From the IMG/VR virus record IMGVR_UViG_3300010368_000035, positions 1 through 37,022 of that record: a stretch of DNA of 37,022 nucleotides; one strand, given 5' to 3'. Of the stretch, positions 2,898 through 37,022 are shown one piece after another. The translations under genes were made by a program, and so were the position numbers. Source of the DNA: a virus. Within the stretch, counting starts at the first letter, position 1. Every line of letters begins with the position of its first letter. The notes beneath the pieces are model-generated. The model did not search any database. It was not told the DNA's origin and saw nothing but the letters and a program-made list of their open reading frames with translations.

Positions 2898-2905
2898 TAT
2901 TTATA
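2898..2905 (-). promoter_or_regulatory. T4-type late promoter octamer before gp18
   Basis: The plus strand reads TATTTATA, so the minus strand has a perfect TATAAATA, the T4 late promoter -10 element read by RNA polymerase with the gp55/gp33 late factors. Transcription would start about 6 bases downstream and give a very short leader before the gp18 ATG at 2878. It lies in the 72-base gap between gp17 and gp18. Position and orientation make it the likely main sheath promoter. Confidence 0.85.
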
Positions 2906-2939
2906 TGGAACATAATACGGTTTTTATCACTTACAACTA

Positions 2940-2947
2940 TATTTATA
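2940..2947 (-). promoter_or_regulatory. Second T4-type late promoter octamer before gp18
   Basis: A second perfect TATAAATA on the minus strand sits 42 bases upstream of the first, four bases after the terminase stop codon. A tandem pair before the sheath gene would fit its high copy need. The surrounding sequence is very AT-rich, so chance occurrence is more likely for this copy than for the other octamers. Confidence 0.6.
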
Positions 2948-2950
2948 ATA

Positions 2951-6823: not shown

Positions 6824-6826
6824 TCA

Positions 6827-12680: not shown

Positions 12681-12688
12681 TATTTATA
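12681..12688 (-). promoter_or_regulatory. T4-type late promoter octamer before Ig-like and fibre genes
   Basis: A perfect TATAAATA on the minus strand overlaps the last codons of the preceding radical SAM gene, whose stop is at 12684. It points to the Ig-like gene at 12626 and the 1093-residue fibre gene. It marks the boundary between the biosynthetic chain and the structural genes. Because no strong terminator is visible here, transcripts from the upstream chain may also run through. Confidence 0.85.
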
Positions 12689-13784
12689 CAATTTTCTTTT
12701 TCGGAATCTTAGAATCTGCTGAAGAAACACATGTTTCTGTGATACATGGCATTGGTTTATCAAATAATTTGAAACCAGTTGTGATATTTCCTAATGGTTC
12801 ATCACTACAAGAGTAACTGCGTTTGATATTACCATCAGGTTCGCGAATAATAATGCTACGATAGCCAGACTCGCAATTCCAACCAAGAAACTTATTGAAC
12901 TCAAAGGTATTAAATCGTTCAGCTTGGTCCATATAATACTTATTGCCTTTATCATCTTTCAACTCCACTTGCATATGTTGAGGAACACCAGTTGTTTCAT
13001 AACGAAGATCTAATTCTACTTTTGGCTTTGGTCTGGTAATTTCTTTTTTAATATCGGTAAATCCTCGTTGAGGCATGCCGTTACGTAATCTTTCAAGCAT
13101 TGATTCAGTGTAGCCATCAACAATAAAACTAGCAGTAGGATCAGACTGAGGTTTAAGAGTGACATTGATTCCTCTTTCATGGAAATATAGTGCGTCTTCC
13201 CAACATTGCTCAAACTTGTCTGGTAACATCACTTGGTTAATAGTAACTTGAATATCTTGAGTCTGACAATACTCGAGCTTGTCGGCAAACTCAGCAACTT
13301 TGGCATCAGTGTCGACATGTTCTCTATGACATGATGCAGTGATACTTGCTCGATTAAATTTTGATACAATTTTAGCGTACTCTTCAAACCATTTCATTTT
13401 ACGTGAAATATTAGAAGTCATATGAACTGAATGATAATTACAATTTGGAACATCGTCAGCAAGATATTCCATAATCTCTAAATACTGTGGATGGAATGTA
13501 GGTTCACCACCACTAAAACTAAAATGAAAAGAATTATATCCATTCTCACGAGATTGGCGCTTGATCTCATCAATCGTCATAAGAATCAGATCAATCGGTC
13601 TATGGTCCTTGGTTCGACTTGATGCGTACGGCCAGCAGTAAGAACACGAGTAATTACAGAATCGACCAAGTAACCAACTCACCGTAAACAGATCACGATG
13701 AATCATAGTGCGTTGACCAACACTTACAATATTATCAAATGGTATTTGCGTGAAGTCATATTGACTCCATTTCAAATCAGTCAT
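12684..13784 (-). CDS. Radical SAM protein with C-terminal twitch-like domain
   Basis: This 366-residue protein has the radical SAM cluster motif CNYSCSYC (Cys 43, 47, 50) and the SAM-binding motif SGGEP near 91-95. Family knowledge: such enzymes cleave S-adenosylmethionine at a [4Fe-4S] cluster to start radical chemistry. The C-terminal part begins GWNCESGYRS near residue 301 and includes PDGNIKRSYSC and EPLGNI, with Cys 304, 326, 347 and 352 as likely ligands of an auxiliary cluster. This domain is shared with the proteins at 28140-29090, 34929-35816 and 35807-36730. The ATG overlaps the last SGNH gene by eight bases (ATGACTGA). It is the last gene of the chain. The substrate is unknown. 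Confidence 0.88.
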   Translation of the reverse strand: MTDLKWSQYDFTQIPFDNIVSVGQRTMIHRDLFTVSWLLGRFCNYSCSYCWPYASSRTKDHRPIDLILMTIDEIKRQSRENGYNSFHFSFSGGEPTFHPQYLEIMEYLADDVPNCNYHSVHMTSNISRKMKWFEEYAKIVSKFNRASITASCHREHVDTDAKVAEFADKLEYCQTQDIQVTINQVMLPDKFEQCWEDALYFHERGINVTLKPQSDPTASFIVDGYTESMLERLRNGMPQRGFTDIKKEITRPKPKVELDLRYETTGVPQHMQVELKDDKGNKYYMDQAERFNTFEFNKFLGWNCESGYRSIIIREPDGNIKRSYSCSDEPLGNITTGFKLFDKPMPCITETCVSSADSKIPKKKIV

Positions 13785-14454
13785 ATATAAACTCAGTTTC
13801 TGGCTTAAAATCTAAACGACTTGACATTTTTTTGCCATTCACAGTATCTATAAACATTTCAGCAATAAACTCGTGCGCCTGTTGATTCGGATGACCACAT
13901 GGTAGAGCGTAATCTGTCATCATAATATTATGAGTTGACCACCTGCCCCAAGCCAATTCAGGAAAACCAATATCAATTTCTTTTATATGTGGGTGGCTGT
14001 TTATATATTCAGCAACACCAACAAATTTATTTGATGCGTTTTTCATGCTTGTTTCTATACCTAATGATATTCTTTGATAACATGGAATATTAAAATGACT
14101 ACATAATAATTTTGTTCTTCTTATACTTCGAATAGTTTGATCAATTATATACGTGCCATGTATAGATCTAAATTCATAATCAATAATTGTATCATAATCA
14201 AATACATTAATTCTTGTAGGATTAGTCCAATAAACCATTACTATAATGTCTTTATCACGATTCTCCATTATAGCATCAAATATTCTATTTTCTATTTGCC
14301 CATTGCTACCACCAGCAACTGCAACATTTAACAAATCTATATCTAACTTTTCAGATACTAATGTAGGCCAAGTAAACACTCCATATTTTTCATAATTTTT
14401 TACTCCAGTTTGAGCGGTATTACTACAACCACCAGTAATAAGTAATTTAGTCAT
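13777..14454 (-). CDS. SGNH-type hydrolase-like protein (fifth in the island)
   Basis: A 225-residue protein of the SGNH/GDSL fold. Block I is LLITGGCSNT, with Ser 11 the probable nucleophile and Cys where the family usually has Asp. Block II is AVAGGSNGQIEN. A VYWTNPTRIN segment follows, and block V is GHPNQQAHE, supplying the catalytic His. Members of the fold are esterases, deacetylases or acyltransferases acting on sugars and lipids. I start at ATG 14452-14454 (MTKLLI), which overlaps the previous stop by eight bases, although the frame is open further. The protein ends FIYD, and its last codons contain the start of the radical SAM gene. The actual substrate is unknown. Confidence 0.82.
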   Translation of the reverse strand: MTKLLITGGCSNTAQTGVKNYEKYGVFTWPTLVSEKLDIDLLNVAVAGGSNGQIENRIFDAIMENRDKDIIVMVYWTNPTRINVFDYDTIIDYEFRSIHGTYIIDQTIRSIRRTKLLCSHFNIPCYQRISLGIETSMKNASNKFVGVAEYINSHPHIKEIDIGFPELAWGRWSTHNIMMTDYALPCGHPNQQAHEFIAEMFIDTVNGKKMSSRLDFKPETEFIYD

Positions 14455-15283
14455 ATATGTATAAAGGCTCGCTTGATGAAGCTTCTCCATAGAGTTCTAA
14501 ATATTTATTGATAAAACTGTGAGCAATTAACTGATGTCCATTTTCGTTTGGATGCTGCTCTTCATCGCTAATATAATAATTATGATATAATTCAAAACAT
14601 GATGACCCTAAAGCAAATAAATCAGAATTACCTACGATATTTGTGAATTCAGAAATTTTCTTAAAATATTGATTCTTATTTCTACAAAGCTCAAGTATTT
14701 CTTTTCTCGCTTTTATTCTTTCATCGATACTAATATTTGGTTCTGTAATCCATTCAATACCTCTGAGAATTGAAAGAGCTCTATGGTGTAAGATTTGAAT
14801 GTTTCTATGTTTACAATATTGATCTAACAAATAGATATGTCTCAATGAAACATTAGCGACAGATAACCAAAATTCTTCTTTTGGAATAGCTTTTGGATGA
14901 TCAGATATAGCTAGACGGTATAGTTTTCTCATCTCTTCTTGAACATCAAATTTTGCTGCTCCAAATTTATATTTGGGTCTTGTTGACATGTAATTTGAAA
15001 ATTGTAATTGTGCTGATTCAAGTTCAAATGGAGCAATTCTACATGCTTGTGACCAGTTTGCCATTACAATAATATCACGATTTGAATTTTCTTCAATAGC
15101 ATCAATGACTTTATTGTGAATCCAATCATTACCGACACCACCTTTTGAGATGTTAATAAGATCAACATCAAGATATTCAGCTACAACATCTGGCCAGATT
15201 TTATTGATACCATGTTCTATATAACAATCTTCTTTTGGATGAGACCAACTATCGCCTCCAACAATTAACAATTTTTTAGTCAT
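14447..15283 (-). CDS. SGNH-type hydrolase-like protein (fourth, canonical GDS)
   Basis: A 278-residue SGNH/GDSL-fold protein. Block I is LLIVGGDSWS with the canonical Gly-Asp-Ser (Ser 12). Block II is SKGGVGNDWIHN, the middle block is ANWSQACRI, and block V is QHPNENGHQ. The N-terminal half is paralogous to the neighbours, while the middle carries an insert with a helical LRHIYLLDQYC segment also seen in the copy at 22306-23196. Start at 15281-15283 follows the shared MTKKLL pattern and overlaps the previous stop by eight bases. It ends YIYD. Likely an esterase or acyltransferase within the island pathway; substrate not identifiable. Confidence 0.83.
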   Translation of the reverse strand: MTKKLLIVGGDSWSHPKEDCYIEHGINKIWPDVVAEYLDVDLINISKGGVGNDWIHNKVIDAIEENSNRDIIVMANWSQACRIAPFELESAQLQFSNYMSTRPKYKFGAAKFDVQEEMRKLYRLAISDHPKAIPKEEFWLSVANVSLRHIYLLDQYCKHRNIQILHHRALSILRGIEWITEPNISIDERIKARKEILELCRNKNQYFKKISEFTNIVGNSDLFALGSSCFELYHNYYISDEEQHPNENGHQLIAHSFINKYLELYGEASSSEPLYIYD

Positions 15284-15938
15284 AAGTAAATTCAACTTTT
15301 TTCTTCAATTGATTCATATAACGATCAATCATTATGTTTGCTATTTTCTCGTGACCGCTTTGATCTGGATGACCGTCTATAGGAATTCGTGTATAATCAA
15401 TTCCACCGCTCTCTATTTCTCTCATTGTAAAATTTAGATTATTAAAGTACCAATCACTTCTTATATTTTTATAAGCATTAGCTAAAGAACCTTTCGTTAA
15501 ATTTGGAATATGAAAGTCTCCTAAATAATCCACATATCTTAAACCTAAATTTTCAACAATTGTTTTAGTTCTCCATATAGATCTTAAAGAACATTTTACA
15601 ATTGTATATGGCTTTTCCATATCTTCAATATCTTTAAATTCAATCCATTGATCGTTATACTTAGGATCTACATAACTATAACAATCATTACCATTGAGTC
15701 TTTTTGTATCTGTCCAAAGCGCCATTACAAGAGGATCTTCATCCTTATATTTGAGAGCTGCATCGATAATGCTATTTTCAATATAATGATTACTTGCTCC
15801 TCTTCTTGCAAGATTTAATAATTTCAAATCTAATTCTTGAGCCACAATGACTGGCCAAGCAATAATTCCAAATTCATCTTTATACCATTCGTGCTCAGTA
15901 TTACTACAACCACTGACAATTAATAATCTTTTAGTCAT
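15276..15938 (-). CDS. SGNH-type hydrolase-like protein (third)
   Basis: A 220-residue SGNH/GDSL-fold protein and the shortest of the five. Block I is LLIVSGCSNT (Ser 12, with Cys in place of the usual Asp). Block II is ARRGASNHYIEN. The ALWTDTKRLN segment follows, and block V is GHPDQSGHE. It begins MTKRLL at ATG 15936-15938 and overlaps the previous stop by eight bases (ATGACTAA). The C-terminus is VEFTYD. Its closest resemblance in the window is to the copy at 13777-14454. It is a likely hydrolase or acyl-transfer enzyme; it may differ in mechanism from the two GDS copies. Confidence 0.82.
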   Translation of the reverse strand: MTKRLLIVSGCSNTEHEWYKDEFGIIAWPVIVAQELDLKLLNLARRGASNHYIENSIIDAALKYKDEDPLVMALWTDTKRLNGNDCYSYVDPKYNDQWIEFKDIEDMEKPYTIVKCSLRSIWRTKTIVENLGLRYVDYLGDFHIPNLTKGSLANAYKNIRSDWYFNNLNFTMREIESGGIDYTRIPIDGHPDQSGHEKIANIMIDRYMNQLKKKVEFTYD

Positions 15939-16743
15939 AAACAAAATTTTCCATAGAACTCATATGAGCTCCATCATATGGTAATTGATTTGATTCCATT
16001 AGCAACATAAAAGATTCTTTTATGGATTCATGACCTTTTTGATTTGGATGACCATTATTTGGAATTTTCATAGAAACATCTTCGGTCCATTTCATATTTT
16101 TAGTATACGGTTGGCTCTTGAAATAGTCATAAGAAAAATATCTATTCTTTGGAGTATTCTCTATTAAGATTCTTTCTCTCTCCATTTGTTCTAATAATTG
16201 ATTTTCAGTAATGTCATCATCATAATATGGAGCAATCCATACAATTCCAGCGCATGGACTATAAACATGTGTATGATAAAATTTTATATTGTGCTGTTTT
16301 AGAAAATTATCTAATCGCCATACACATCTTAAATTAAAGTTCACTGCTCTTAGATCAAAATTTTCATCCCAAAATTCGTCATTAGTTAACATATAATCTC
16401 TTAAAGCTTTATGTCTAAGTCTTAACGATTCGTTGATATTAATTGACTCAGAATTAGATGTTAAGACGTGGCCATCAACATCAAAAAAATTTAGTCGATT
16501 ACTACCTGTCCATAAAACACAAACAATAATTTCTCTATCTAAATTATCAACTACTGCGTCCATCACAGAATTACTAATATAATCGTTTGATGCTCCTTTT
16601 TGAGCAACGTTGAGAAGTTCAACATTTAGCTCTTTAGCTAAAAGTTCAGGCCAAACTTCAATATTATGATCTTTGTATATTGTATATTTTGGATCTGAAA
16701 AACTACAACCAGATGTAATTAATAATCTAGAAGACTTTGACAT
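15931..16743 (-). CDS. SGNH-type hydrolase-like protein (second)
   Basis: A 270-residue SGNH/GDSL-fold protein. Block I is LLITSGCSFS with Ser 14, block II is AQKGASNDYISN, the middle block is VLWTGSNRLN, and block V is GHPNQKGHE. Between them is a longer region with LRCVWRLDNFLKQHNI, similar to the copies at 14447 and 22306. I start at ATG 16741-16743 (MSKSSRLL), which overlaps the carbamoyltransferase gene by 17 bases; the longer open frame adds nine residues that no paralogue has. The protein ends NFVYD, and those codons give the start of the next gene. Substrate unknown. Confidence 0.82.
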   Translation of the reverse strand: MSKSSRLLITSGCSFSDPKYTIYKDHNIEVWPELLAKELNVELLNVAQKGASNDYISNSVMDAVVDNLDREIIVCVLWTGSNRLNFFDVDGHVLTSNSESININESLRLRHKALRDYMLTNDEFWDENFDLRAVNFNLRCVWRLDNFLKQHNIKFYHTHVYSPCAGIVWIAPYYDDDITENQLLEQMERERILIENTPKNRYFSYDYFKSQPYTKNMKWTEDVSMKIPNNGHPNQKGHESIKESFMLLMESNQLPYDGAHMSSMENFVYD

Positions 16744-18049
16744 TATATCTTTTTTCCCATGATTTAGCATGTTCTAATGTGTCAATCATTGGTTCACCCT
16801 TGATATTTAGGCTTGTGTTAAGTAGCATCGGACAACCAGTTAATTCGTACCATTCTTCAAGGATTGGTCGAATTACTGATCGACAATCAGGTTTGACTAC
16901 TTGTACTCTCGCAGTTCCATCTACATGAGTAACAGAGTCATAATCATGAAGAGCCTTTGCCACAAACTGCATGTACTCGTTCATCGGTCCGCTAAAAAAT
17001 TTGGTGGAATATTCTTCGAGGATGGCTGGTGCAAAGGGCCTAAATCTTTGACGTCTTTTGATGTCGTTGACTGTGTCTTGTATGTCCAATCGTGGATCCG
17101 CCAAAAGACTACGATTCCCCAAAGCACGAGGGCCGAATTCAGCCCGACCGTTGGCCACGCCAGCCACCCCATGAGTGCTAAGGTAGCTTGCAACTTCTCT
17201 CGGGTTGAGAGTGCGATCGATGTTTGTTCCAAGATAAGGTCCTTTCCAATTGAGTTTCTTTCCATAGTGTCTTGCTGCAGCTCCAAGTGATGAACCAGCA
17301 TCTCCCGGATTTGGCATGATCCATATATTCTTACCATATATCTTTGAATTAGCCACACAGTTCAAAGCGCAGCCACCCATTAAAATAAGATTCTTATGCT
17401 TACAATGTAATTTTACTAGATCATGTAGCCATGTCTCATATGCGTATTGAATAGAAGCAGCAATATCTTCAGGTCTTCCTTTTGGTAATTCAATTCCTTT
17501 ATGACAATTTTCTAAATATAGATCTACGAAATGCCAATACTGAGGGTCACCATAAGCAGCTAAACCCATCACTATATATTCTTCTTCCATTGGTTTATAA
17601 CCAAGACCAGCAGTAACGGCAGAATAAGCTAGACCAAGACTATAAGGATATTTCATTTCCCAAGTCTGAGTAAAGACTCCATCTCTGACTTGAAATGCAG
17701 CTGCAGTTTCTTTTTCGCCAATAGCATCAACACAAAGAATATCGCAATCATCAAATGGAGATGTCGCCCAACCAGCCCAAGCATGAGTCTCATAATGGTT
17801 GTACTCATAATCAACATCGATATTTTTTGGTTGTGGATCTTGACCAGCTTCTCTACGTCTTTCGGCTAGACGTTCTTTATTCTCATGACCAATAACAACA
17901 TCCCAGCCGGGAAGCTTCTTGGCTGGTATCCATTTTTCATTCTTATTTCGAGTATGACGTTCGGCATGATGAGCTTCTAAGATCTCACCATTTTCAACTA
18001 AACACCATGCGGCATCGTGGCTACCTTCTGATATACCTAAAATCTTCAT
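16727..18049 (-). CDS. NodU/CmcH-family carbamoyltransferase
   Basis: A 440-residue enzyme of the family that transfers carbamoyl from carbamoyl phosphate, through carbamoyl-adenylate, to a hydroxyl on sugars, antibiotics or, in some phages, modified bases. The N-terminal ASKHA-like domain starts MKILGISEGSHDAAW and has HHAERHTRNK and NHYETHAW. GGCALNCVANSKI lies near residue 225. The YrdC-like C-terminal domain carries EFGPRALGNRSLLADPR near 304-320, RFRPFAPAIL near 336, THVDGTARVQ and LLNTSLNIKGEP. It is shorter than NodU because the extreme C-terminus is reduced. Start is ATG 18047-18049, in a four-base overlap with the radical SAM stop. Bases 17090-17230 are GC-richer than their surroundings. 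Confidence 0.92.
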   Translation of the reverse strand: MKILGISEGSHDAAWCLVENGEILEAHHAERHTRNKNEKWIPAKKLPGWDVVIGHENKERLAERRREAGQDPQPKNIDVDYEYNHYETHAWAGWATSPFDDCDILCVDAIGEKETAAAFQVRDGVFTQTWEMKYPYSLGLAYSAVTAGLGYKPMEEEYIVMGLAAYGDPQYWHFVDLYLENCHKGIELPKGRPEDIAASIQYAYETWLHDLVKLHCKHKNLILMGGCALNCVANSKIYGKNIWIMPNPGDAGSSLGAAARHYGKKLNWKGPYLGTNIDRTLNPREVASYLSTHGVAGVANGRAEFGPRALGNRSLLADPRLDIQDTVNDIKRRQRFRPFAPAILEEYSTKFFSGPMNEYMQFVAKALHDYDSVTHVDGTARVQVVKPDCRSVIRPILEEWYELTGCPMLLNTSLNIKGEPMIDTLEHAKSWEKRYNVKVF

Positions 18050-18957
18050 ATCCACTCTTTACAATTTTTACATAATTCTAAAGGCTCATCAAACAATTCT
18101 TCGAAAAAACTATTTTGAAGAATGTCGTCATATTCATATGAATTCAAATTATTATTAAGAGCAAATAATTCTAATTCTTGAAACATTTCTGGATGAGTGG
18201 ATATAGAAGGCATATAACAACATTGCCATACATTACCCCACGCATCAATTTGAGCTTGTCTTCTTTTTCTCCACTGGCATCGATGATTATCGTCGTATTC
18301 TTCTGGAAATTCAAGTCTTTTTATTTTCCAATTATATAATTCGTCTATTGCAATTCTTTTAACTATACTTTCTGAAAAATTTTTATATTGCTTTTGATAT
18401 ATTTCATCTTTGTAAGATTCAAATACTTGAAACGATTCAAATCCAAGATCACGTGCTAATTGACTAGCAATTTCAATTTCATGTTTATTGTGTTCAAACA
18501 TAATATACTTCCATCTGGCTCTTCCTCCAGATTGAATAAACGCTTTAGCATGATCTAAAACTTTTTCAATATCAACACCTCGTCTATATAAATGATTTGT
18601 TGATATACCATCAATCGCAAAACTTACTCTTGCAGTAAATTCATTTAACTTTTTAGCTAATTGTTTCCACCATTCTATATTTCTTGCTCCACCATTTGTT
18701 GAAAAATCGACAACGACATGTCTAGGAATAGAATCAATTAATTCAATAGCATTAGGGTGCATTGTAAAATCACCATATGCACCATTAAAGTATATCGTTT
18801 TGATATCACTAAAATTTATTTTTTTAAAAGTGTCGAGTGGAAGATGAACTAATTCAACACATACTTCGCCTCCATCGATATTTCGAATACATCCACCACA
18901 ATGACTATTACAATACGTAGTAATATCAACTTGTAATTCGGCTACTTTCATGTCCAT
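18046..18957 (-). CDS. Radical SAM protein, GNxGDP-type subgroup (divergent)
   Basis: About 300 residues. The cluster motif is CNSHCGGC, immediately after a short strand at the N-terminus. Where the two neighbours have CGNxGDP, this protein has NGAYGDFTMHP. The C-terminal domain contains CQWRKRRQAQIDAWGNVWQCC and ends with LCKNCKEWI, giving Cys for an auxiliary SPASM-like cluster. The pattern of a strand with DxWGN.W.CC is usual for enzymes that act on peptides or other bulky substrates. Two ATGs compete: 18955-18957 (MDMK), which overlaps the previous gene by ten bases, and 18949-18951, in a four-base ATGA overlap. Either is possible. Substrate unknown. Confidence 0.85.
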   Translation of the reverse strand: MDMKVAELQVDITTYCNSHCGGCIRNIDGGEVCVELVHLPLDTFKKINFSDIKTIYFNGAYGDFTMHPNAIELIDSIPRHVVVDFSTNGGARNIEWWKQLAKKLNEFTARVSFAIDGISTNHLYRRGVDIEKVLDHAKAFIQSGGRARWKYIMFEHNKHEIEIASQLARDLGFESFQVFESYKDEIYQKQYKNFSESIVKRIAIDELYNWKIKRLEFPEEYDDNHRCQWRKRRQAQIDAWGNVWQCCYMPSISTHPEMFQELELFALNNNLNSYEYDDILQNSFFEELFDEPLELCKNCKEWI

Positions 18958-20012
18958 TGAGCCACAAACGGATCGAATCCTATATTACATTTAGTGCCAC
19001 AGGTTTTCATTCTCCCTTGACTAACCCCATGTATATCCCACGAATTTTCAATCGCCTTAAAGAACTCGCCTTCAAGGATTTGCTCCAAAGGAGTGTGATG
19101 GACATTAATTCGTTCAAACCCGCCAGTTTTTTGTATGATTTTATATTCCTGCGAAGTTTCTATAGGTCTCCACCATTTGTACACTTGCCCCGCAAGCCAA
19201 CAACACGGAAAGACAAGACCTTCGGCTGAAACGTATATCTCTTTTTTCTGGACGCATTTCGGTTTGATTTCGGCAATATCAATAAATTTATCCATTGAAC
19301 CATAGGTCTTGACGATCTTTTCATAGTCCTCATCAATCGCTTTGTTTCTGTACTGGGGAGATTGCGGTGGTGCAAGCCGTGTTGAATCTTTACCCCTGAA
19401 TACTGCTTGGTGTTCATCTTTTTTCCTCAAATCTGCTGTATTGATATATCGTCCAGACTTCTTGACAATAAACTCTTTCACTCCAAGAATCTGCGAAAAC
19501 ATTTCTGCTTGTTTCACTTGATGTTCGTTATAATTGAATACAAGGAATGTCCACTTGGCATAACCACCGGCATCACAAAAGGCAGCCATGTTTTCTTCAA
19601 CATGTTCCCATTTTACACCTTGTCGATAAAAGTGATTTGTGTCTTGTAAACCATCAACAGAGAAGTTGACAAATGAAACTACCTTGGCTAGTCTTTCCCA
19701 CCACTCAGGTTTTCGAGCACCACCATTAGTAGTAACAAACATATGAATATCAGGATTACACTCACGTACGTACTCTGCTTGTTCTAGCATATCAGGAGCA
19801 AAGATAGGATCTCCATGATTGCCACAAAAGTAGAATGTTTTCAGTTGTGATAAAAACTCTGGTGAAAAGGCTTTCTTAAAACCTTCCAACGTCATTGACT
19901 CATCTTTCAGATGTTGATTGACTTCACCACCATTCTTATTCCTATCACACATAGGACAAGAAGCTTGGCAAAGTTGAGTTGGTTCAAAGTGAACCATTTT
20001 CACATTATACAT
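18948..20012 (-). CDS. Radical SAM protein, GNxGDP-type subgroup
   Basis: A 354-residue protein with cluster motif CQASCPMC (Cys 15, 19, 22) and CGNHGDPIFAPD in place of the common GGEP motif. FSVDGLQDTNHFYRQG in the centre is nearly identical in pattern to the next gene. The C-terminal SPASM-like domain holds CVQKKEIYVSAEGLVFPCCW and a final CGTKCN. It is a clear paralogue of the gene at 20005-20997. The start ATG lies in an eight-base overlap with the previous stop (ATGTATAA). The protein ends AQWT, and its final codons contain the next start. Role: radical SAM modification of an unknown substrate. Confidence 0.9.
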   Translation of the reverse strand: MYNVKMVHFEPTQLCQASCPMCDRNKNGGEVNQHLKDESMTLEGFKKAFSPEFLSQLKTFYFCGNHGDPIFAPDMLEQAEYVRECNPDIHMFVTTNGGARKPEWWERLAKVVSFVNFSVDGLQDTNHFYRQGVKWEHVEENMAAFCDAGGYAKWTFLVFNYNEHQVKQAEMFSQILGVKEFIVKKSGRYINTADLRKKDEHQAVFRGKDSTRLAPPQSPQYRNKAIDEDYEKIVKTYGSMDKFIDIAEIKPKCVQKKEIYVSAEGLVFPCCWLAGQVYKWWRPIETSQEYKIIQKTGGFERINVHHTPLEQILEGEFFKAIENSWDIHGVSQGRMKTCGTKCNIGFDPFVAQWT

Positions 20013-29090: not shown

Positions 29091-30409
29091 AACAATCCCT
29101 CATATTGTGGCACTACATCTAGAATATTCTGGCCACGTATCAAATCAAGTTTCTTTGTATGGTCAATAAACTCTTGTAAATGATCTGTCGCAAAATCTTC
29201 GGAATTCATAAAATCCATAATTCCATCGAGAATCTCAACAAATTTTTGTTTCACATGGTCAGAATGATTTGAATCCATTACCCAATCAATATACTCCTGA
29301 TATGTATCACAGACTTCATCCTTCAACATTTGTGGTAGGACTTTTACATTATAATATTTTGGTGAATGGCACATGTGCTGAGTAATAATAGGACGTGGAC
29401 CAGTAATAGGATTAAACCGTGTCAAACCAGATTCTTCGAGTTTCCACTTCATAAACTCTGGCAAATGAAATACATTAAATGGTGTTACCGTAAAAGCAAA
29501 CCAACCTTTGAGATTGATATTTGGATTATCATTCAGTTTCTTCATGTTCTTATAAACTGATGGCCACTTAGCCGGTGTTCTCTGATATTCAAAGACATCA
29601 CCATAACCATCAATCGACACACCAATCCGAACCTGTTGAAAGTTCTCCCATATCTTCATAATCCGATCGGTGACGTTAGTCAAGTTACTATTGTATTCGA
29701 TCTGAATATCTTTTGATCTACCTGCAGCAATCAATCTTTCAAGAGATTCAAAGTGCTCTTCAATAATCAGTGGTTCACCACCTACAATATAAAGCTTCTT
29801 TGCTTTTGTTGTATGTTTCTCAAAGTTATTCCAGTAGAAGTTTGAGTTCTTAAACCAATCATATTGATTTGTTGACCATTTACCTTTTTCATTTTTAGTC
29901 AATTGAATTAGATCATGAGTGTCTTTGTACCGAGTAGTGTTATAGAGTTTGACGTGGTCTTCATACCACATGTGAGAATCAGTGGGTCCACACATTCGGC
30001 ACTTGAGGTTACAAAAGTTCCCATAGCGAATATCAAAAAACTCGATATCAAAATCAAGAGGATTGATACTGCCATCGTTATTAGTATAAGCTTTAGCATC
30101 CTCGAGAGTGAGGTCCCAGTCTTCACATTCATATTCTCTCCTTGATCGAATACCGTTGATCTCTTCTTGGCGGCAACGTTCACATTCAGGATTCCATTCT
30201 CCTTTCATCATTGAAACACGAACTTCTTTGAGAATCTCAGCATTACGTGCTTCATTCAAGTCGTCACGGCCGGCATTGTATGGTGTACCATCTGCTTTAC
30301 GCATGATACCTTTCTTCGGACTATAGCTGTTTGTATTACAACAAATCCGAAGATCGCCATTATTTCGTAGATTAATTGAGTTCCAAGCTAATGGACAAAA
30401 GGTACTCAT
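29087..30409 (-). CDS. Radical SAM protein with N-terminal twitch-type domain (copy 3)
   Basis: A 440-residue protein. The N-terminal domain has Cys 5 (TFCPLAWNS), the CysCys pair at 23-24 (LRICCNTNSYSP), and CERC at 76-79 followed by QEEINGIRSRR. The radical SAM motif is CNLKCRMC (133-140), then VGGEPLIIEEHF and SIDGYGDVFEYQRTPAKW. The design is almost identical to the gene at 31583-33010, including a short Asp- or Glu-rich insert between the two domains. It starts in an ATGA overlap with the previous gene and ends VVPQYEGLF, similar to the ending VVPEFASLI of the copy at 26953. Substrate unknown. Confidence 0.9.
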   Translation of the reverse strand: MSTFCPLAWNSINLRNNGDLRICCNTNSYSPKKGIMRKADGTPYNAGRDDLNEARNAEILKEVRVSMMKGEWNPECERCRQEEINGIRSRREYECEDWDLTLEDAKAYTNNDGSINPLDFDIEFFDIRYGNFCNLKCRMCGPTDSHMWYEDHVKLYNTTRYKDTHDLIQLTKNEKGKWSTNQYDWFKNSNFYWNNFEKHTTKAKKLYIVGGEPLIIEEHFESLERLIAAGRSKDIQIEYNSNLTNVTDRIMKIWENFQQVRIGVSIDGYGDVFEYQRTPAKWPSVYKNMKKLNDNPNINLKGWFAFTVTPFNVFHLPEFMKWKLEESGLTRFNPITGPRPIITQHMCHSPKYYNVKVLPQMLKDEVCDTYQEYIDWVMDSNHSDHVKQKFVEILDGIMDFMNSEDFATDHLQEFIDHTKKLDLIRGQNILDVVPQYEGLF

Positions 30410-31593
30410 TCTATATCCTCAAGCATTTCATGACAGATTGGATGATAATCTTTCAAGTATTTATTGCGCGCGAAATCTTGTATTCCAGTCAAATATTTTA
30501 ATGTTTTGATGTGTTCTGAATTTGTTTCTTTTGACAACATGCTGTCAAAAATATGTTTATTCTTATCATAACTATTATTCTGTTTAGCTATATCAATTGC
30601 TTTTTCTTTCCATTTTGGTGTCATATATCCAGGACAGTGCTGAAAAGGTACAACTACTAATTCAGGATTACTTTCAGATATCCAAGGAGTTTCATCTATC
30701 AGCTGACCCAATTCCCAAAAATCAAATATATTATAATTCATTACTACTTGGCCTATGTCTAAATGTAATTTATCGTTCCAAGACATTTCAGATATTTTTT
30801 GAATATTTTCCCATATCTTTTTACCATTAGAATTTCCTCTAATATATTCTAGTCGATTCGGATGAGAATCAAATGAAATGCGTAAGCGTACATTATCAAA
30901 TTTTGTAAGTAGTTTATAGAATTCGTCTTGTGCGTTTGTGCCGTTTGTCACAACTCTAATTGATACTGAAGTGTTACCAATTTCAATAAGTTTTCGTAAT
31001 AATTGTTTTACTTCAGGTTGTACTGTAGGTTCTCCACCAAGAATCCTTACATATTTAATAAACTCAGCTTCTTCAAGAAGTCCATCTATATTTTTAGTTT
31101 CTCCTAAACTTAATTTAAATTCTTTATCGTACTTTTCCCAATGAGGATACAACTCTGGAATAGCTTCTGCTTCTTTTACAAGCTGTGAACTTGATTCTGG
31201 TGAACACATTCTACAGGCAAGATTACAAACATTATTAAATCTTAAATCATAAGAAAATGGAGCGCCAAAAACATTACCTTGTTTGATATCAAGAGTAGGA
31301 CTTCCACTTTCTTTCCATATATCATTAATCATTCTTCTGAATGAATAATTTCCTAAAGATTCTTCATATTTGCAGTGACGACATTCTTCTAACCATCCAT
31401 CGCCATTTAACATAAAGTCTCTGACTTTTTGATAATCGTCGCCTTCCCAATCTTCTAAATCAAGTAGTATTTCTTGATGTTCGTTATTTACATTAGTTGT
31501 TGGCCATCTGTCAGACCAACAACAAAGAAATTTTTTTCCTTGTGTTGATATGAACTGATGAATAAAAGGAGCAGCACAAAAATTATTTGCCAT
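30406..31593 (-). CDS. Radical SAM protein with N-terminal twitch-type domain (copy 2)
   Basis: A 395-residue protein. N-terminal Cys 6 (NFCAAPFIHQF), CysCys 24-25 (FLCCWSDRW), CRHC at 71-74 with KYEESLGNYSFRR, and the radical SAM motif CNLACRMC at 123-130. ILGGEPTVQPEVKQLL and SFDSHPNRLEYIRGNSNG follow; the usual SIDG sequence is changed to SFDS here. It begins in an 11-base overlap with the first gene (ATGGCAAATAA) and its base composition is more AT-rich than that of the first gene. The protein is expected to carry two iron-sulfur clusters. Substrate unknown. Confidence 0.89.
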   Translation of the reverse strand: MANNFCAAPFIHQFISTQGKKFLCCWSDRWPTTNVNNEHQEILLDLEDWEGDDYQKVRDFMLNGDGWLEECRHCKYEESLGNYSFRRMINDIWKESGSPTLDIKQGNVFGAPFSYDLRFNNVCNLACRMCSPESSSQLVKEAEAIPELYPHWEKYDKEFKLSLGETKNIDGLLEEAEFIKYVRILGGEPTVQPEVKQLLRKLIEIGNTSVSIRVVTNGTNAQDEFYKLLTKFDNVRLRISFDSHPNRLEYIRGNSNGKKIWENIQKISEMSWNDKLHLDIGQVVMNYNIFDFWELGQLIDETPWISESNPELVVVPFQHCPGYMTPKWKEKAIDIAKQNNSYDKNKHIFDSMLSKETNSEHIKTLKYLTGIQDFARNKYLKDYHPICHEMLEDIE

Positions 31594-33010
31594 ACCACTC
31601 CAACCAATCTAAGTCTGGAAAGACTTCATTGAAATCAAGAAATCTTTGCTTTGCTACTTTATAACACCATTCTGCAGTCTCTGGCAATCTTTCGGTCCAA
31701 TCATCAGCTTCCATGAAATTCAACAATCCTTCGAGGCGTTCAATACCATATTCAGAACTACGCCATGTATCATAGTCAACATCATCGATTCCAGTACATT
31801 TTCTCCAATTCTTTTCGAGGTATGGGTAAAGTTCATCTTCAAACTTTTGTCTTACTTCTGCTTTGAACCAATCAGGTAGGACTTTCACATTGAGTTGTGG
31901 TGGCCAATAAGCAAGATGGCAATTAAAAATACCAGCTCCATTCGGCCATTTATTCAGAATCTTAAAGTTAGATTCTAGTTTCCACTTGATAAATTCAGGC
32001 ACATAGAATATATTGAGTGCCATAATTGTAGTGGCAGTAGTCAATGTAAGATTACCATATGGATAATCATCCATCTTACGAATTGACGCTTCAATATCTG
32101 GCCAGAAAGATGGATAACGAATGAAATGATTACGAAGCATAATATCATCTATACTAAAGTGAAAGATAACATTACGAAACTCTTTCCACAAGTCAAACAA
32201 ATCATCACGCCATTCAATACCATTTGAGTTATAACGTAGTTCGATCTGTGGAGCTAACCCATCTTCAATACATTTTTCGAGCAACATGTAATGCTCATCC
32301 ATAATCAATGGTTCACCACCAGCAAAGTACAATTGACGTAGATGCGGAAGTGTTTCGTATAGCTCATCCCAGAACTTTGGATTCTTCTTATGCCAATTAT
32401 AGGAACCACCTGACCAAGCTAGCTTGCCAGATTCCTTTTCCCATATCATTGACTTTTTGAGATTTTCATTCTCAAGTGTTGGATAGATTTGTTTGTATTC
32501 TTTTACCCAATTAGAGGAATCATGAGGAGAGCACATAACACATGCAAGCTGACACTTACTCCCAAGGCGTAGGTCGATATAACGAATCCTTGGAGCCACT
32601 GATCCATCTTCACCTGTACCTTCAATGATTGATTCGATTCCACCTTGGTCTTTAATCCATTTGCGAGTTTCCCATATTCGTTTTGAGATATGACCTGCCT
32701 CTTCTTCTTTATAACACTTAGTACATGATTGTGGTTTTTCGCCATTGAGCATCATCCTCCTAACACCACGCATATATTCATTATTCCAAGATTCCATCAA
32801 ACCAGTTGTGGCAAGGTTAGATGGTTTACCATCATCATTACGAAGTACACCGGATTCTGAAACTGTTTTGTTTGTCGAGTCAGCATTCACTGCAACGCCT
32901 GAGGCATTAGCAGTACAACACACTCTCATATGTCCATTTGGTCTTGTTGAAAGGTGCATCCACGGAAGAGCACAAAAAGTTTCAGAAGGGAATTGATCGT
33001 CAATACTCAT
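31583..33010 (-). CDS. Radical SAM protein with N-terminal twitch-type domain (copy 1, first gene of the chain)
   Basis: A 475-residue protein, the longest of the group. The N-terminal domain has Cys 13 (TFCALPWMHL), CysCys 31-32 (MRVCCTANASG), and CTKC at 96-99 followed by YKEEEAGHISKR. The barrel motif is CQLACVMC (153-160), then FAGGEPLIMDEH at about 230. The usual SIDG.G turn is SIDDIML in this copy, so the barrel's substrate side may differ. It is the first gene behind the late promoter octamer at 33040-33047, with AGGAT as ribosome site before ATG 33008-33010. It heads 21 overlapping genes. Substrate unknown. Confidence 0.91.
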   Translation of the reverse strand: MSIDDQFPSETFCALPWMHLSTRPNGHMRVCCTANASGVAVNADSTNKTVSESGVLRNDDGKPSNLATTGLMESWNNEYMRGVRRMMLNGEKPQSCTKCYKEEEAGHISKRIWETRKWIKDQGGIESIIEGTGEDGSVAPRIRYIDLRLGSKCQLACVMCSPHDSSNWVKEYKQIYPTLENENLKKSMIWEKESGKLAWSGGSYNWHKKNPKFWDELYETLPHLRQLYFAGGEPLIMDEHYMLLEKCIEDGLAPQIELRYNSNGIEWRDDLFDLWKEFRNVIFHFSIDDIMLRNHFIRYPSFWPDIEASIRKMDDYPYGNLTLTTATTIMALNIFYVPEFIKWKLESNFKILNKWPNGAGIFNCHLAYWPPQLNVKVLPDWFKAEVRQKFEDELYPYLEKNWRKCTGIDDVDYDTWRSSEYGIERLEGLLNFMEADDWTERLPETAEWCYKVAKQRFLDFNEVFPDLDWLEWYGK

Positions 33011-33039
33011 AATAAATCCTGTGATATATAGTAACGAGG

Positions 33040-33047
33040 TATTTATA
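33040..33047 (-). promoter_or_regulatory. T4-type late promoter octamer for the 21-gene chain
   Basis: The minus strand reads TATAAATA in the 37-base gap between the divergent chains, 30 bases before the first ATG of the minus-strand chain. It is a perfect match to the T4 late -10 element and points toward the radical SAM genes. It also touches the ribosome-site region of the plus-strand glycosyltransferase gene. This is the sequence basis for calling the biosynthetic chain late-expressed. Confidence 0.85.
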
Positions 33048-33737
33048 ATGGACTTTTATACACTAAAATGGGGCGACAAATATGGTGCCGAATACGTGAA
33101 CCGCCTTTATGGCAGTCTAAAAAAGCATTACAAAGAACCCTTCGCGCTTACATGCTATACAGATAATTATAACATGATTCGCGAAGAAGTAAACATAAAA
33201 AATATCGAATCATTAAGAAAATTTGATACTGATCGAGTGTTTACTTACGAAAAACTAATTCTCATGGAGAAGCATGAAAAAGGTGTATGGCTTGACCTTG
33301 ACATCCTCATTCATGATGAGATTGACTTTATTGACGATTCAGATTTCAAAATGATTTGGAATTATTGGCATCCTTATAGTCGAAGTTATACATGGTATGG
33401 TAAAGGTGGATCTTGCCATGTAAATAGTTCTTTTTGTAAATTTGAAAATGCTGAGTGGTTGATAAAATTTACAAATGATAATTGGGAGAAGATTGAGTGG
33501 ACTTATAAATCACTTGACAAATATCTCTTTTACCAACATCATAGAAATGAACGACTTAAGTTTTGGGATCAAGGTATTGTGACAAACTATAATCATGGTG
33601 GATTTGGATTGAAAGGTAAGATCTCGCTCTTCAACACATCACATAAATACAATAATAAAGGTATTGTTGAAGAGTCTTATGAGCTACATGAGGCTGATCC
33701 TGAGACTGTGAAGTTGTGGGAAAGCTATGAACATTAA
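33048..33737 (+). CDS. GT-A-type glycosyltransferase-like protein
   Basis: A 229-residue protein starting MDFYTLKWGDKYG. The feature WLDLDILIHD (Asp 83 and 85) matches the DxD metal and nucleotide-sugar site of GT-A enzymes such as the GT8 or GT32 types, and the preceding VFTYEKLILME fits the strand that positions it. GWxxxQ-like parts are less clear; FWDQGIVTNYN may be the acceptor-side loop. The frame is open nine codons further, but ATG 33048-33050 has CGAGG before it. It begins the plus-strand chain and overlaps the next gene by 11 bases. It would add a sugar to an unknown acceptor. A second protein of this type starts at 36721. Confidence 0.8.
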   Translation: MDFYTLKWGDKYGAEYVNRLYGSLKKHYKEPFALTCYTDNYNMIREEVNIKNIESLRKFDTDRVFTYEKLILMEKHEKGVWLDLDILIHDEIDFIDDSDFKMIWNYWHPYSRSYTWYGKGGSCHVNSSFCKFENAEWLIKFTNDNWEKIEWTYKSLDKYLFYQHHRNERLKFWDQGIVTNYNHGGFGLKGKISLFNTSHKYNNKGIVEESYELHEADPETVKLWESYEH

Positions 33738-34152
33738 ACATATCACCATGAATTATGATAAGGTTCTCTATCTAGCTTGTAATGATATACGCGAAGATCT
33801 AGAAGAACTCAATTCGTTTGATATCGACGCAAAAGCTATTGATTACGATCCAAAGTTTAAAGATGTTGAATACTACGTCAATAAAGATTTTGTGTTTGAT
33901 GATGTAGATTTAGATGCTGACTTGACTATTCATATGAATGTTGAGAAGACTTATCCGGTCAAGTTATCTGGTGATGTGATTTTACGTGGAGACAATGAAC
34001 ACCACAATGGAGATTGTTGTCCTATTACGTCATGTGAACAACTGATTGAAATGTACAATCTCAAAGAAGTTTATCAACAAGAAATCACGTCTCAAAGAAA
34101 AACTTTACTCAATGGCATCGGTCACTTTATTGTTTACGGAAGAGCGGCATGA
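33727..34152 (+). CDS. Short methyltransferase-like protein lacking a Gly-rich SAM motif
   Basis: A 141-residue protein not recognised as a named family. Its order of elements parallels the protein at 34303-34938: a first strand VLYLACNDIRED in place of the Gly-rich motif, then AKAIDYDPKF, an NKDF segment, DLTIHMNVEKTYPV and ILRGDNEHHNGDCCPI followed by EQLIEMYNLKEVY. I infer that the two are distant paralogues and that this copy may not bind SAM. It could be a non-catalytic partner. ATG 33727-33729 lies in an 11-base overlap with the glycosyltransferase gene, and its stop is an ATGA overlap with the small membrane gene. Confidence 0.6.
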   Translation: MNIKHITMNYDKVLYLACNDIREDLEELNSFDIDAKAIDYDPKFKDVEYYVNKDFVFDDVDLDADLTIHMNVEKTYPVKLSGDVILRGDNEHHNGDCCPITSCEQLIEMYNLKEVYQQEITSQRKTLLNGIGHFIVYGRAA

Positions 34153-34313
34153 AGTTAATTGACTACTTTGTAATTTACTTTTTTACGTATATGATATCTT
34201 CGCATCTTATGTTAATCATGCTGCAGCATTATTTTATTGGTGCCGGTGGTGTGTGGTTATTCTGGACACTATTCAATATTTACTGTAACTGGAGAGCAAC
34301 GAATGCAACTTGA
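34149..34313 (+). CDS. Small membrane protein (54 aa)
   Basis: An ATG in a four-base ATGA overlap with the preceding stop opens a 54-residue frame ending at TGA 34311-34313. It begins MKLIDYFVIYFFTYMISSH and continues with hydrophobic runs to FWTLFNIYCNW, so one or two membrane helices are likely. It fills what would otherwise be a 150-base gap in a chain where all other genes overlap, and it overlaps the start of the next gene by 11 bases. A membrane anchor for the glycosyl- or methyl-transferase steps is possible. No homologue is recognised and expression is unproven. Confidence 0.6.
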   Translation: MKLIDYFVIYFFTYMISSHLMLIMLQHYFIGAGGVWLFWTLFNIYCNWRATNAT

Positions 34314-34938
34314 ATACGCTGAAATGATGAAGTGGCTTCGTCATAATCACCCAGATAAATTTGATCGTTGGATTGATTCTTTGCATCCGAATCAAATTAA
34401 ATGTAAAGAATGGCTTGTTTATGATGGACTAAATAAAGTACAAATTCCTCGTGATGAAAACAGAAATTTTCGTATAGAAATCATTGGTGGATGGTATGGG
34501 TTTCCTCTTATTCAGTTTCTAATGGATGATTGGAATATTCAAATTCGTGAGATTGATATTTTTGAGATTGACTCATGGGCTTGTAAAATGATTTGGAAGT
34601 ATTGCGATATCTTTGGCTATGACAACGTACGTATTTTTAATCAAGACTACTTTACTTATACAGAAAAAAGACGTACACATCTGGTAATCAATACGTCTTG
34701 TGAACATATGTGGAACATGGACACAATGAAAGAGTATTACGAAGAACCTGAACGTACTCTTTTGGCTCTGCAATCAAATGACAAGACAAACGAGCCAGAC
34801 CATATCAATTGTGTCAAGACCGGTCAAGAACTCGCTGCTCAAGCTGGTGTCAAAGAACTCTATGGTGGTAAGATGAGATTTAACGAAGGCACACCAGATC
34901 AATACACTCGATATATGATATTAGGCAAATGGAAATAA
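34303..34938 (+). CDS. Class I SAM-dependent methyltransferase-like protein
   Basis: A 211-residue protein. FRIEIIGGWYGFPLIQFL near 57-73 is a motif I-like Gly-containing loop, REIDIFEIDSWA gives the acidic residue after the second strand, and THLVINTSCEHMWNM is the fourth strand, with the NTSxEH signature that I recall from a family of marine phage proteins. A long LALQSNDKTNEPDHINCV segment and a closing YMILGKWK strand complete the fold. I start at ATG 34303-34305, with GGAG eight bases before it, rather than TTG at 34237. The end GKWK carries the ATGG start of the next gene. Methyl acceptor unknown. Confidence 0.72.
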   Translation: MQLEYAEMMKWLRHNHPDKFDRWIDSLHPNQIKCKEWLVYDGLNKVQIPRDENRNFRIEIIGGWYGFPLIQFLMDDWNIQIREIDIFEIDSWACKMIWKYCDIFGYDNVRIFNQDYFTYTEKRRTHLVINTSCEHMWNMDTMKEYYEEPERTLLALQSNDKTNEPDHINCVKTGQELAAQAGVKELYGGKMRFNEGTPDQYTRYMILGKWK

Positions 34939-35816
34939 TTAACTCAAATCCGGATTGCTGTATTGTCTCGTTGTTTGTCCATAATGTCTGTAATTTTAAT
35001 TGTAGTTATTGTAGTGATGAACATCGTGACGGGTCGTACCGTTGGCCAACAAAATGGGATGGTTACCTTGATCTAATTGATGAGATTAAAGAGAAAAAGA
35101 AATACGTGTATGTTCAAATTCTTGGTGGTGAACCAACACTCTGGCCAAAATTCCATGACTTTATAGATTATATTAGTGATGATAGAACATATATTGAATA
35201 TGCTACAAATGGTAGTAGAACAAAAAGATATTGGGAAAGTTTACCAAAACATACAGCAACCGCTCTCTTTAGTTGGCATCACGAAGAAGTAGATGATGAC
35301 CATTATCTTGATGTTCTTGAGATCATGCAAGATAAAGCTACTTGTGTAGCTACATTCTTATTGACTCCGGATAATTATGAAAGAGGAAGAGAAGTATATT
35401 ATAAGATAGTTGAGAGAAAATTAAGAGTTGAAGCAATTCCAAAGTTTACTCGTGTAGTAATTGATGGACCAGACTATTTTGAATATACGAGTGAACAAAA
35501 AAATTGGATTCAGTCTCACTATTGGAACAATACTCAATCTGGACCAAATTTTGTTTTACCACTTGAATGCAGCGCCGGCAAGTTATCAGAAATGATAGTG
35601 GCTGAGAATTATTGGTTTCAAAATTGGAAATGCCATGCTGGTATAGATAGAATCTTTGTAGAACTTGATGGTGAAGTGTACCGTTGTACAAAACGAGTAG
35701 GTGGAAGTCTAGGAAATATCAATACGTACTTTGAACTTCCGAAAGATCCAATCGTCTGTGATACGCATAAGCCTTGTACTTGTCGTCTTGAAACTGTATT
35801 GACAAAATGGACATAG
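34929..35816 (+). CDS. Radical SAM protein with C-terminal twitch-like domain
   Basis: A 295-residue protein with radical SAM motif CNFNCSYC (Cys 21, 25, 28), ILGGEPTLWPKFHDF near 64-78 and ATNGSRTKRYW. FSWHHEEVDDDHYLDVL is shared with the next gene. The C-terminal domain contains NWKCHAGIDRIFVELDGEVYRC and GSLGNIN, then CDTHKPCTC, which would bind an auxiliary cluster. Start is ATG 34929-34931, in a ten-base overlap (ATGGAAATAA). It is a tandem paralogue of the next gene and related to those at 12684 and 28140 on the other strand. Substrate unknown. Confidence 0.9.
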   Translation: MEIINSNPDCCIVSLFVHNVCNFNCSYCSDEHRDGSYRWPTKWDGYLDLIDEIKEKKKYVYVQILGGEPTLWPKFHDFIDYISDDRTYIEYATNGSRTKRYWESLPKHTATALFSWHHEEVDDDHYLDVLEIMQDKATCVATFLLTPDNYERGREVYYKIVERKLRVEAIPKFTRVVIDGPDYFEYTSEQKNWIQSHYWNNTQSGPNFVLPLECSAGKLSEMIVAENYWFQNWKCHAGIDRIFVELDGEVYRCTKRVGGSLGNINTYFELPKDPIVCDTHKPCTCRLETVLTKWT

Positions 35817-36730
35817 ATAATCATATGAGAATTACAAACAATAATCTAGATTGTGGTATTGTGAACATTATGCTCCATGACGTGTGCAATTATAAATGTA
35901 CGTATTGCTCGCCGTATCATTATGGTGGAAAACACAGATGGCCTACTAATTGGGAAAATTATGTCGATCTTTTAGAAGATATGGAAGAGCATAACAAATA
36001 TTTGTTAATATCTTTGCTTGGTGGTGAACCAACACTCATGCCAAAGTTTGATGAATTCTGCAAAAGAATTAATGCTCCGAATAGAATTATTGAAATTTGT
36101 ACAAATGGAAGTCGCACTTTACGATACTGGAACAACTGGCCCGAAGACCTGAATGTTTACATTGTATTCAGTTGGCATTCAGAATTTGCAGATGATGACC
36201 ATTTCTTTAATGTGATTCAAGCCATGCAATCAAAAGGAGAAATAGTTGCTAATTTACAAGTGACTCCAGAAAATTTTGATAGAGCTCGAAAATTAGCTGC
36301 AAGAATTATAGAAAGCGAAGCCACTGTTACTGTAAATCCTAAACTCACTCGAGTAAATATTCAAGGTGATGGTAAGCTAATGGATTATACTCCTGAACAA
36401 ATTAAGTGGATTAATAAACCAAGAATAGAAAGACATATTCCATTAAAAGTTAATTGGCCGTATCCTTGGAAAATCTATATTGATGGAGAAGAACGATTTC
36501 ACCCTGACATGATCGCTAATAATGAAGTAGATTTTCGTGGTTGGAGTTGCATGGCTGGAATAAAAAGTATATCTGTTGAAAAAGATGGCACTATTCGAAG
36601 ATGTTGCGCCGGTGCTGGCTTTCCTCTTGGAAATATTAACACAGTTTGGCAATTACCTACTCAGCCACACGTATGTGAAATTATTTCATGCCATTGTAAA
36701 CTTGATACGATGGTTGAAAAATGGAAATAG
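35807..36730 (+). CDS. Radical SAM protein with C-terminal twitch-like domain (tandem paralogue)
   Basis: A 307-residue protein. The motif is CNYKCTYC (Cys 27, 31, 34), with LLGGEPTLMPKFDEF and FSWHSEFADDDHFFNV following the same order as its neighbour. The C-terminal domain has GWSCMAGIKSISVEKDGTIRRC, GFPLGNIN and CEIISCHC. GWSCMAGI is identical to the sequence in the minus-strand gene at 28140, which links the two chains. The start ATG 35807-35809 lies in a ten-base overlap (ATGGACATAG), with a second Met at position 7. The tail EKWK holds the start of the next gene. Substrate unknown. Confidence 0.9.
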   Translation: MDIDNHMRITNNNLDCGIVNIMLHDVCNYKCTYCSPYHYGGKHRWPTNWENYVDLLEDMEEHNKYLLISLLGGEPTLMPKFDEFCKRINAPNRIIEICTNGSRTLRYWNNWPEDLNVYIVFSWHSEFADDDHFFNVIQAMQSKGEIVANLQVTPENFDRARKLAARIIESEATVTVNPKLTRVNIQGDGKLMDYTPEQIKWINKPRIERHIPLKVNWPYPWKIYIDGEERFHPDMIANNEVDFRGWSCMAGIKSISVEKDGTIRRCCAGAGFPLGNINTVWQLPTQPHVCEIISCHCKLDTMVEKWK

Positions 36731-37022
36731 TACTACTCAACACTCCACCAGCATATGGACAATCATATTGGGTACACAATATAGAATATATGTTAGAGAA
36801 CGTAGGAGCTCAATATGACAGACTACACGTTATGGACGATGTTCTATATGGTGGTGTCTATGATAAGCTTCGTCTCTTTGATTTGTTTAAGGAGAGTCGA
36901 TATCTTTATTTTGATCTCGATATTCTTATTAGGGGTAGTATCGATGATCTTTGGCGCGATCAATTTACACTTCTTCATGCTTGGTGGAGACAGCCTTTTC
37001 ACACTCCTCTAAATAGTTCTAT
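36721..37022 (+). CDS. GT-A-type glycosyltransferase-like protein (partial)
   Basis: An open frame of about 100 residues runs off the right edge. It starts MEIVLLNTPPAYGQSYW at ATG 36721-36723, in a ten-base overlap with the radical SAM stop (ATGGAAATAG). YLYFDLDILIRGSIDDL includes Asp 65 and Asp 67 as the DxD site and matches the WLDLDILI segment of the glycosyltransferase at 33048. YDKLRLFDLF precedes it in the same place as YEKLILME. It is therefore a second sugar-transfer enzyme in this chain. The C-terminal part and any further genes of the chain are outside the window. Confidence 0.82.
   Translation, partial: MEIVLLNTPPAYGQSYWVHNIEYMLENVGAQYDRLHVMDDVLYGGVYDKLRLFDLFKESRYLYFDLDILIRGSIDDLWRDQFTLLHAWWRQPFHTPLNSS

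Follow-up and report, generated by a model that had tools for sequence, protein, structure and literature searches.

The closest described counterpart of the gene island reported here is the host recognition cluster of pelagimyophages, the name given in PMC7029224 to the region from VrlC to gp14 of those phages. The island comprises 28 genes, 13 of them encoding radical S-adenosylmethionine (radical-SAM) proteins (r1 to r13), and lies in IMG/VR record IMGVR_UViG_3300010368_000035 (the window, meaning the whole stretch analyzed), a 37,022-base linear fragment of a T4-like myovirus that includes gp13 to gp19. In the accessible part of PMC7029224, the cluster shares the T4-like backbone and the place (VrlC to gp14) of the island and likewise holds fibres, glycosyltransferases, and radical-SAM cassettes that differ between relatives; the cassettes get one sentence there, and neither 13 radical-SAM genes nor an r1/r3/r11 core, a late promoter, or Bdellovibrionota relatives are described in that part. 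A second report (PMC5332604) contains the T4-like genome TARA_ERS488813_N000010, with 12 radical-SAM genes and an iron-sulfur (Fe-S) A-type carrier. By description, it resembles G001 (123 kb, the closest long relative of the window), which has an r1 island and PF01521; PMC5332604 frames the genes as Fe-S metabolism and proposes no island architecture or function. The place of the island and the many radical-SAM genes of such phages had already been noticed (2017 and 2020), in passing mentions only. The literature searched, which excluded most subscription journals and all preprints, yielded no account of the shared core, the Bdellovibrionota link, the late promoter, or the lack of the system in sequenced phages.

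Two further likenesses are more remote. Vibrio phages K566 and K567 (OZ196521 and OZ196593) resemble the island in that N-twitch radical-SAM genes, at least five of them, are clustered, the proteins being about 20 to 30% identical to those of the island; the stretch in which they alternate with glycosyltransferase-like genes (OZ196521.1, 161548-178915, locus L189) is possibly a tractable model for the N-twitch family. Peptide-modifying radical-SAM/SPASM maturases (PqqE, mycofactocin, sactipeptide, and ranthipeptide) have twitch/SPASM-like auxiliary cysteines in common with the island proteins and a weak profile similarity to them, but the latter fall far below the equivalog cut-offs of those profiles, and no precursor peptide was found. 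We tentatively interpret the island as a mobile tailoring pathway, expressed late and located in the tail-fibre region of marine T4-like and larger phages, by which a product is decorated; the likeliest target would be the receptor-binding fibres of the virion.

A probable late operon among fibre genes

By open reading frame (ORF) calling, the island runs from position 12684 to the contig end in two divergent chains, in agreement with the initial annotation: 21 genes on the minus strand (33010 down to 12684) and 7 on the plus strand, the latter count including a 54-aa membrane ORF (34149-34313) and a GT8-like gene truncated where the contig stops. All 20 junctions of the minus chain overlap, by 4 to 17 nt when the likeliest starts are taken, and the plus-chain junctions overlap too. 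A chance ORF pattern was ruled out because r9 and its neighbours are common to 29 IMG/VR loci.

The exact T4 late promoter element, TATAAATA, occurs at five sites in the window, all on the minus strand: two before the sheath gene and one each before the structural gene, the fibre chaperone gene, and r11, the first gene of the minus chain. All five lie 27 to 69 bp upstream of same-strand genes, as opposed to 7% of random positions. The r11 site is retained in two relatives, G001 and G023 (at 40 and 39 bp), and the larger relatives G008 and G020 agree, with 9 of 10 and 12 of 15 sites, respectively, placed in this way. Given these sites near gene starts, the minus chain was treated as a late operon, and we infer a single transcript across its 21 genes; the late expression expected from the initial annotation is thus supported. 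No TATAAATA site was found ahead of the plus chain, and CTAAATA, which we take to be the cyanophage late motif, was not enriched.

The fibre chaperone, fibre, gp13, and gp14 genes adjoin the island in the window. The order in G001 is phrog_358 and fibre-like proteins, the island, then chaperone, fibre, gp13, and gp14; its phrog_358 proteins are presumably VrlC-like. The island sits between VrlC-like genes and gp14 with fibre genes adjoining, as in the host recognition cluster of PMC7029224. Fibre neighbours were found in several phage groups, which would suit a virion target.

Features of the window are as follows.

538-8946, minus: T4-like neck/tail/packaging block (tail tube, sheath, TerL, TerS, gp15, gp14, gp13, structural protein)
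8985-12266, minus: repetitive fibre-like protein of 1093 aa, so named by position and sequence character; no profile match
12276-12626, minus: member of the L-shaped tail-fibre assembly protein family (phrog_3304), lying just downstream of the island
12681-12688, minus: TATAAATA late promoter before the fibre chaperone gene
12684-13784, minus: r1, radical SAM; the system's most widespread gene
13777-14490, minus: s1, SGNH/DUF6071-like; likely start 14454
14447-15295, minus: s2, SGNH-like (GDS block)
15276-15944, minus: s3, SGNH-like (GCS block)
15931-16770, minus: s4, SGNH/DUF6071-like (GCS block)
16727-18055, minus: NodU/TobZ-type carbamoyltransferase (NodU-type match, 1e-44)
18046-18957, minus: r2, radical SAM/SPASM-type
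18948-20012, minus: r3, radical SAM/SPASM-type; core family also present in Bdellovibrionota
20005-20997, minus: r4, radical SAM/SPASM-type
20984-21667, minus: mt1, class I methyltransferase-like (weak)
21591-22334, minus: QueC-like PP-loop ATPase (SGGADS; CGECWWC at the C terminus)
22306-23196, minus: s5, SGNH hydrolase-like (GDS...HPN)
23186-24370, minus: r5, N-twitch radical SAM
24360-25541, minus: r6, N-twitch radical SAM
25525-26067, minus: 2-oxoglutarate (2OG) oxygenase-like protein, by the motif H78xD80...H161 only; no Pfam match
26042-26956, minus: plp, fold-type I pyridoxal phosphate (PLP) enzyme (D160, K188); HisC/CobD-like fold
26953-28188, minus: r7, N-twitch-type radical SAM; likely start 28152
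28140-29090, minus: r8, radical SAM; MoaA/viperin-like profile matches below cut-off
29087-30409, minus: r9, N-twitch radical SAM; 62-94% identical across 29 IMG/VR loci
30406-31593, minus: r10, N-twitch-type radical SAM
31583-33010, minus: r11, N-twitch radical SAM that heads the 21-gene chain; core family; NF033640 at 8.5e-118
33040-33047, minus: TATAAATA T4-type late promoter, 37 bp before r11
33021-33737, plus: gt1, GT-A-like by sequence reading; no profile match; start probably 33048
33727-34152, plus: u141, small conserved protein
34149-34313, plus: 54-aa membrane microprotein, 85% identical in locus L005
34237-34938, plus: mt2, predicted Rossmann methyltransferase fold (pLDDT 87); start probably 34303
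34929-35816, plus: r12, radical SAM
35807-36730, plus: r13, radical SAM
36721-37022, plus: GT8-like glycosyltransferase, cut by the contig end

The left third of the window is taken up by the minus-strand T4-like block, and the gp13-gp19 genes, T4-type terminase, and T4-type late promoters place the phage among the T4-like (Pantevenvirales) myoviruses. Its TerL is 73% identical to that of Phage C48C1 (Kyanoviridae) and 47% to those of cyanophages; at the nucleotide level, the window DNA had no match among phages. In C48C1 the island is missing, and three small genes occupy its place.

The enzyme assignments of the initial annotation stood, some of them less firmly. All 13 radical-SAM proteins match Pfam PF04055 with CxxxCxxC intact and so belong to the superfamily. 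In the NCBIfam scan, which covered the radical-SAM proteins other than r7, r10, and r13, the curated cut-off of N_Twi_rSAM (NF033640; 170 bits) was passed by r5, r6, r9, and r11; r1, r3, r4, r8, and r12 fall under it. To our knowledge, no product has been established for this family. The carbamoyltransferase, the QueC-like PP-loop protein, and the PLP enzyme were likewise upheld, the last as a strong prediction: Asp160 and Lys188 are invariant across a 24-sequence alignment, and the AlphaFold model (pLDDT 90) matches fold-type-I aminotransferase/CobD structures. Among the methyltransferase-like proteins, mt2 is predicted to have a class I fold and mt1 is a weak candidate. The five SGNH hydrolases are putative, by weak Pfam matches or motifs, and the 2OG oxygenase is a candidate by its HxD...H motif. 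As for the two glycosyltransferases, one is GT8-like as far as the contig end, and gt1, which travels with u141 and mt2, resembles GT-A enzymes on inspection. Compared by sequence with solved structures, r9, the QueC-like protein, and the PLP enzyme gave no meaningful match.

The SGNH proteins (13777-16770 and 22306-23196) have GCS instead of GDS in block I in three of five cases, and all end in aromatic-x-Tyr-Asp. This C-terminal YD was considered as a recognition tag and rejected because the 8 nt that overlap the following ATG largely impose a YD-stop ending; this account does not extend to the aromatic-x pattern ahead of it.

Conserved core and variable content across viruses and Bdellovibrionota

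A search with r9 recovered 29 further IMG/VR contigs with an island of variable content. They fall into two sets, one of T4-like relatives whose backbone is that of the window and one in which the window's terminase was not detectable. The r9 alignment has 75% mean column identity, and the gene order r11-r9-(r12-plp-2og)-r6-r5-queC-r4/r3-r1 is mostly retained while other genes come and go. The genes thus do occur together in related phages. The "complete pathway" of the initial annotation found no such backing, as the gene set differs strongly between relatives, with accessory enzymes changing from phage to phage. In a pattern-based search of 84,980 species genomes, no cellular relative of r9 was confirmed.

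The most widespread gene, r1, was found in at least 565 viral stretches of IMG/VR, on contigs up to 382 kb, and in 0 of 50,697 GenBank phage records. A genome scan also located it in Bdellovibrionota chromosomes at 54 to 62% identity, and r1, r3, and r11 were all present in 16 of 25 genome loci; the accompanying mt2 and GT-like counts merge two families and were set aside. For r11, identity is 50 to 61% to distant phages and about 50% to Bdellovibrionota. The r1 tree placed all 35 viral rows in one strongly supported group, together with five metagenome-assembled genome (MAG) contigs of other phyla, and the Bdellovibrionota rows fell outside it. MAG contigs with phage-type r1 islands (L066/L119, L067, L078, L086, and L091) bear the labels Rickettsiales, Gammaproteobacteria, Chloroflexi, and Acidimicrobiaceae but probably represent phage sequence sorted into bacterial bins; L066 and L119 seem to be one record, and through this pair at least one of the five MAG contigs in the tree agrees in length and range with an IMG/VR virus record. 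Elusimicrobia and related contigs (L093-L108) each have several distant r1/r12/r13-like radical-SAM genes.

Radical-SAM-like genes make up 468 of 764 island genes in 75 viral loci (about 60%), a density that we know from no other phage system. In a nonredundant sample of 130 unassigned island proteins, the top matches were Asp/Asn beta-hydroxylase (8) and nitroreductase (8), followed by radical SAM, B12-binding, and methyltransferase proteins; one cytidylyltransferase was the only nucleotide-sugar-type match. This composition bears on the unlikely alternative that the island makes a host-surface glycan, making or altering a polysaccharide or lipopolysaccharide (LPS) decoration on infected cells or their debris, which would keep rival phages, or progeny of the phage itself, from being trapped there. 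Carbamoyltransferases, SGNH proteins, and methyltransferases are usual glycan decorators, a GT8-like gene stands at the window end, N-twitch radical-SAM genes are interleaved with glycosyltransferase-like genes in K566 and K567, and PMC7029224 takes the glycosyltransferases of this region as O-chain modification. Yet no nucleotide-sugar dehydratase, epimerase, synthetase, flippase, or polymerase was recognized in the window, and almost none among the 130 proteins of relatives, so that the nucleotide-sugar synthesis, flippase, and polymerase genes of an LPS/O-antigen or capsule cluster are lacking. The late promoter would also mean late timing for a glycan serving superinfection exclusion, and we know of no glycan locus with close to 13 radical-SAM enzymes.

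An Fe-S A-type carrier (PF01521 in G001) was present in 15 of 27 island contigs and an IscU-type protein in 6 of 27, compared with 14 and 6, respectively, of 1,352 marine viral/environmental genomes (PMC5332604); as the two samples were not drawn alike, this enrichment is an indication rather than a measurement. A much larger island, in G020 (150,961 bp; about 48,000-97,000, loci L060-L062), contains several QueC-like proteins, B12-binding radical-SAM proteins, an AMP-binding enzyme, and nitroreductase-like and 2OG-like proteins.

Radical-SAM, nitroreductase, B12-radical-SAM, AMP-ligase (in G020), and 2OG enzymes resemble sets that tailor peptide natural products, and Bdellovibrionota hold the core without phage genes. 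Both would suit a released small molecule or peptide product, which we likewise consider unlikely; its precursor or carrier might then be a conserved 74-aa protein (f33) or some other short ORF. In island phages outside the clade of the window, f33 often lies between mt2 and r3 (positions include L021:1742-1966, L185:1387-1611, and L186:2763-2990). It was considered as a precursor peptide and not adopted, being conserved throughout, with no variable C-terminal core of the kind usual in precursors, and absent from the window. No precursor-like ORF, peptidase, or exporter was recognized in the window, and a late operon between fibre genes is an odd site for a released metabolite. With no precursor gene in the window, where very short ORFs were not exhaustively searched and the only extra small ORF found is the 54-aa membrane protein, the island does not qualify as a cluster for a ribosomally synthesized and post-translationally modified peptide.

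Within the radical-SAM islands of two loci lies a gene that reads as ThyX-like, ThyX being flavin-dependent thymidylate synthase (L024:8643-9302 and L030:8604-9305). The copy in L024 would fit a hypermodified base built and attached to the phage's own DNA, and QueC-like PP-loop, 2OG, PLP, and radical-SAM enzymes do occur in phage base-modification loci. We regard this as very improbable: the operon is late and within the tail-fibre block, the core is present in Bdellovibrionota chromosomes, and the window, a fragment of the genome, showed no recognizable deoxynucleotide hydroxymethylase, DNA-base kinase, or DNA glycosyltransferase.

Proposed decoration of receptor-binding fibres

Modification of a virion protein, for which the position of the island and its late promoter are the support, is a plausible but tentative reading. 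Since a late operon in the fibre region encodes enzymes of kinds that often act on peptides, a late protein would be the target, the adjacent fibres being the simplest one. In this scheme, r1, r3, and r11 would catalyze the steps in common, acting on either a ribosomal product or a carried precursor, which phage-specific radical-SAM, PP-loop (adenylation/amidation), PLP, and 2OG/Asp-hydroxylase enzymes would then elaborate; methyl-, carbamoyl-, and glycosyl-transferase and SGNH steps would also belong to this phage-specific part. The finished group would be put on late virion proteins, most likely the neighbouring receptor-binding fibres.

Of 18 contigs of other phages, 16 have an Mtd_N fibre gene no farther than 20 kb from r1 (8.1 expected); this count was taken as modest support only, because a Fisher-combined distance test of fibre proximity was not significant (p = 0.15), and the association is partly a consequence of phage relatedness. 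The latter point is among several that weigh against fibre decoration. No substrate, precursor peptide, or modified residue was identified from sequence, and the glycosyltransferase-like genes that recur in islands leave room for a glycan product. Bdellovibrionota chromosomes also carry the r1/r3/r11 core at a distance from phage genes, one instance being a contig of 936 kb, which means that the product could be something other than a virion part. Finally, when Asp-Ser (DS) repeats were tried as a mark of the fibre target, they did not track the island. The dipeptide is very frequent in the fibre-like protein at 8985-12266 (43 in 1093 aa, on repeats), but as a substrate motif it was rejected: C48C1, without an island, is also DS-rich in its virion proteins, and G008 and G020 are not enriched. 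The proposal of the initial annotation that the group is attached to a late virion protein is partly supported: the late promoter and fibre neighbours fit it, whereas the failed motif test and the core in phage-free Bdellovibrionota chromosomes do not.

More speculative than fibre decoration itself is a previously undescribed modular system for chemical diversification, in which the r1/r3/r11 core, found in Bdellovibrionota and in uncultured ocean phages numbering in the hundreds, would be combined with exchangeable radical-SAM/PP-loop modules to give each phage its own receptor-surface decoration. What probability remains goes to something other than a modified virion, a glycan, a free product, or modified DNA.

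If the island does decorate tail fibres, these phages would have two ways to vary host contact, namely the chemistry of the contact surface and the sequence of the fibre. Ocean viral contigs commonly carry the system, which none of the 50,697 sequenced phage records has and which recurs in Bdellovibrionota; either way, it offers a large and so far unexploited supply of radical-SAM chemistry, built around a conserved core that lends itself to gene-by-gene testing.

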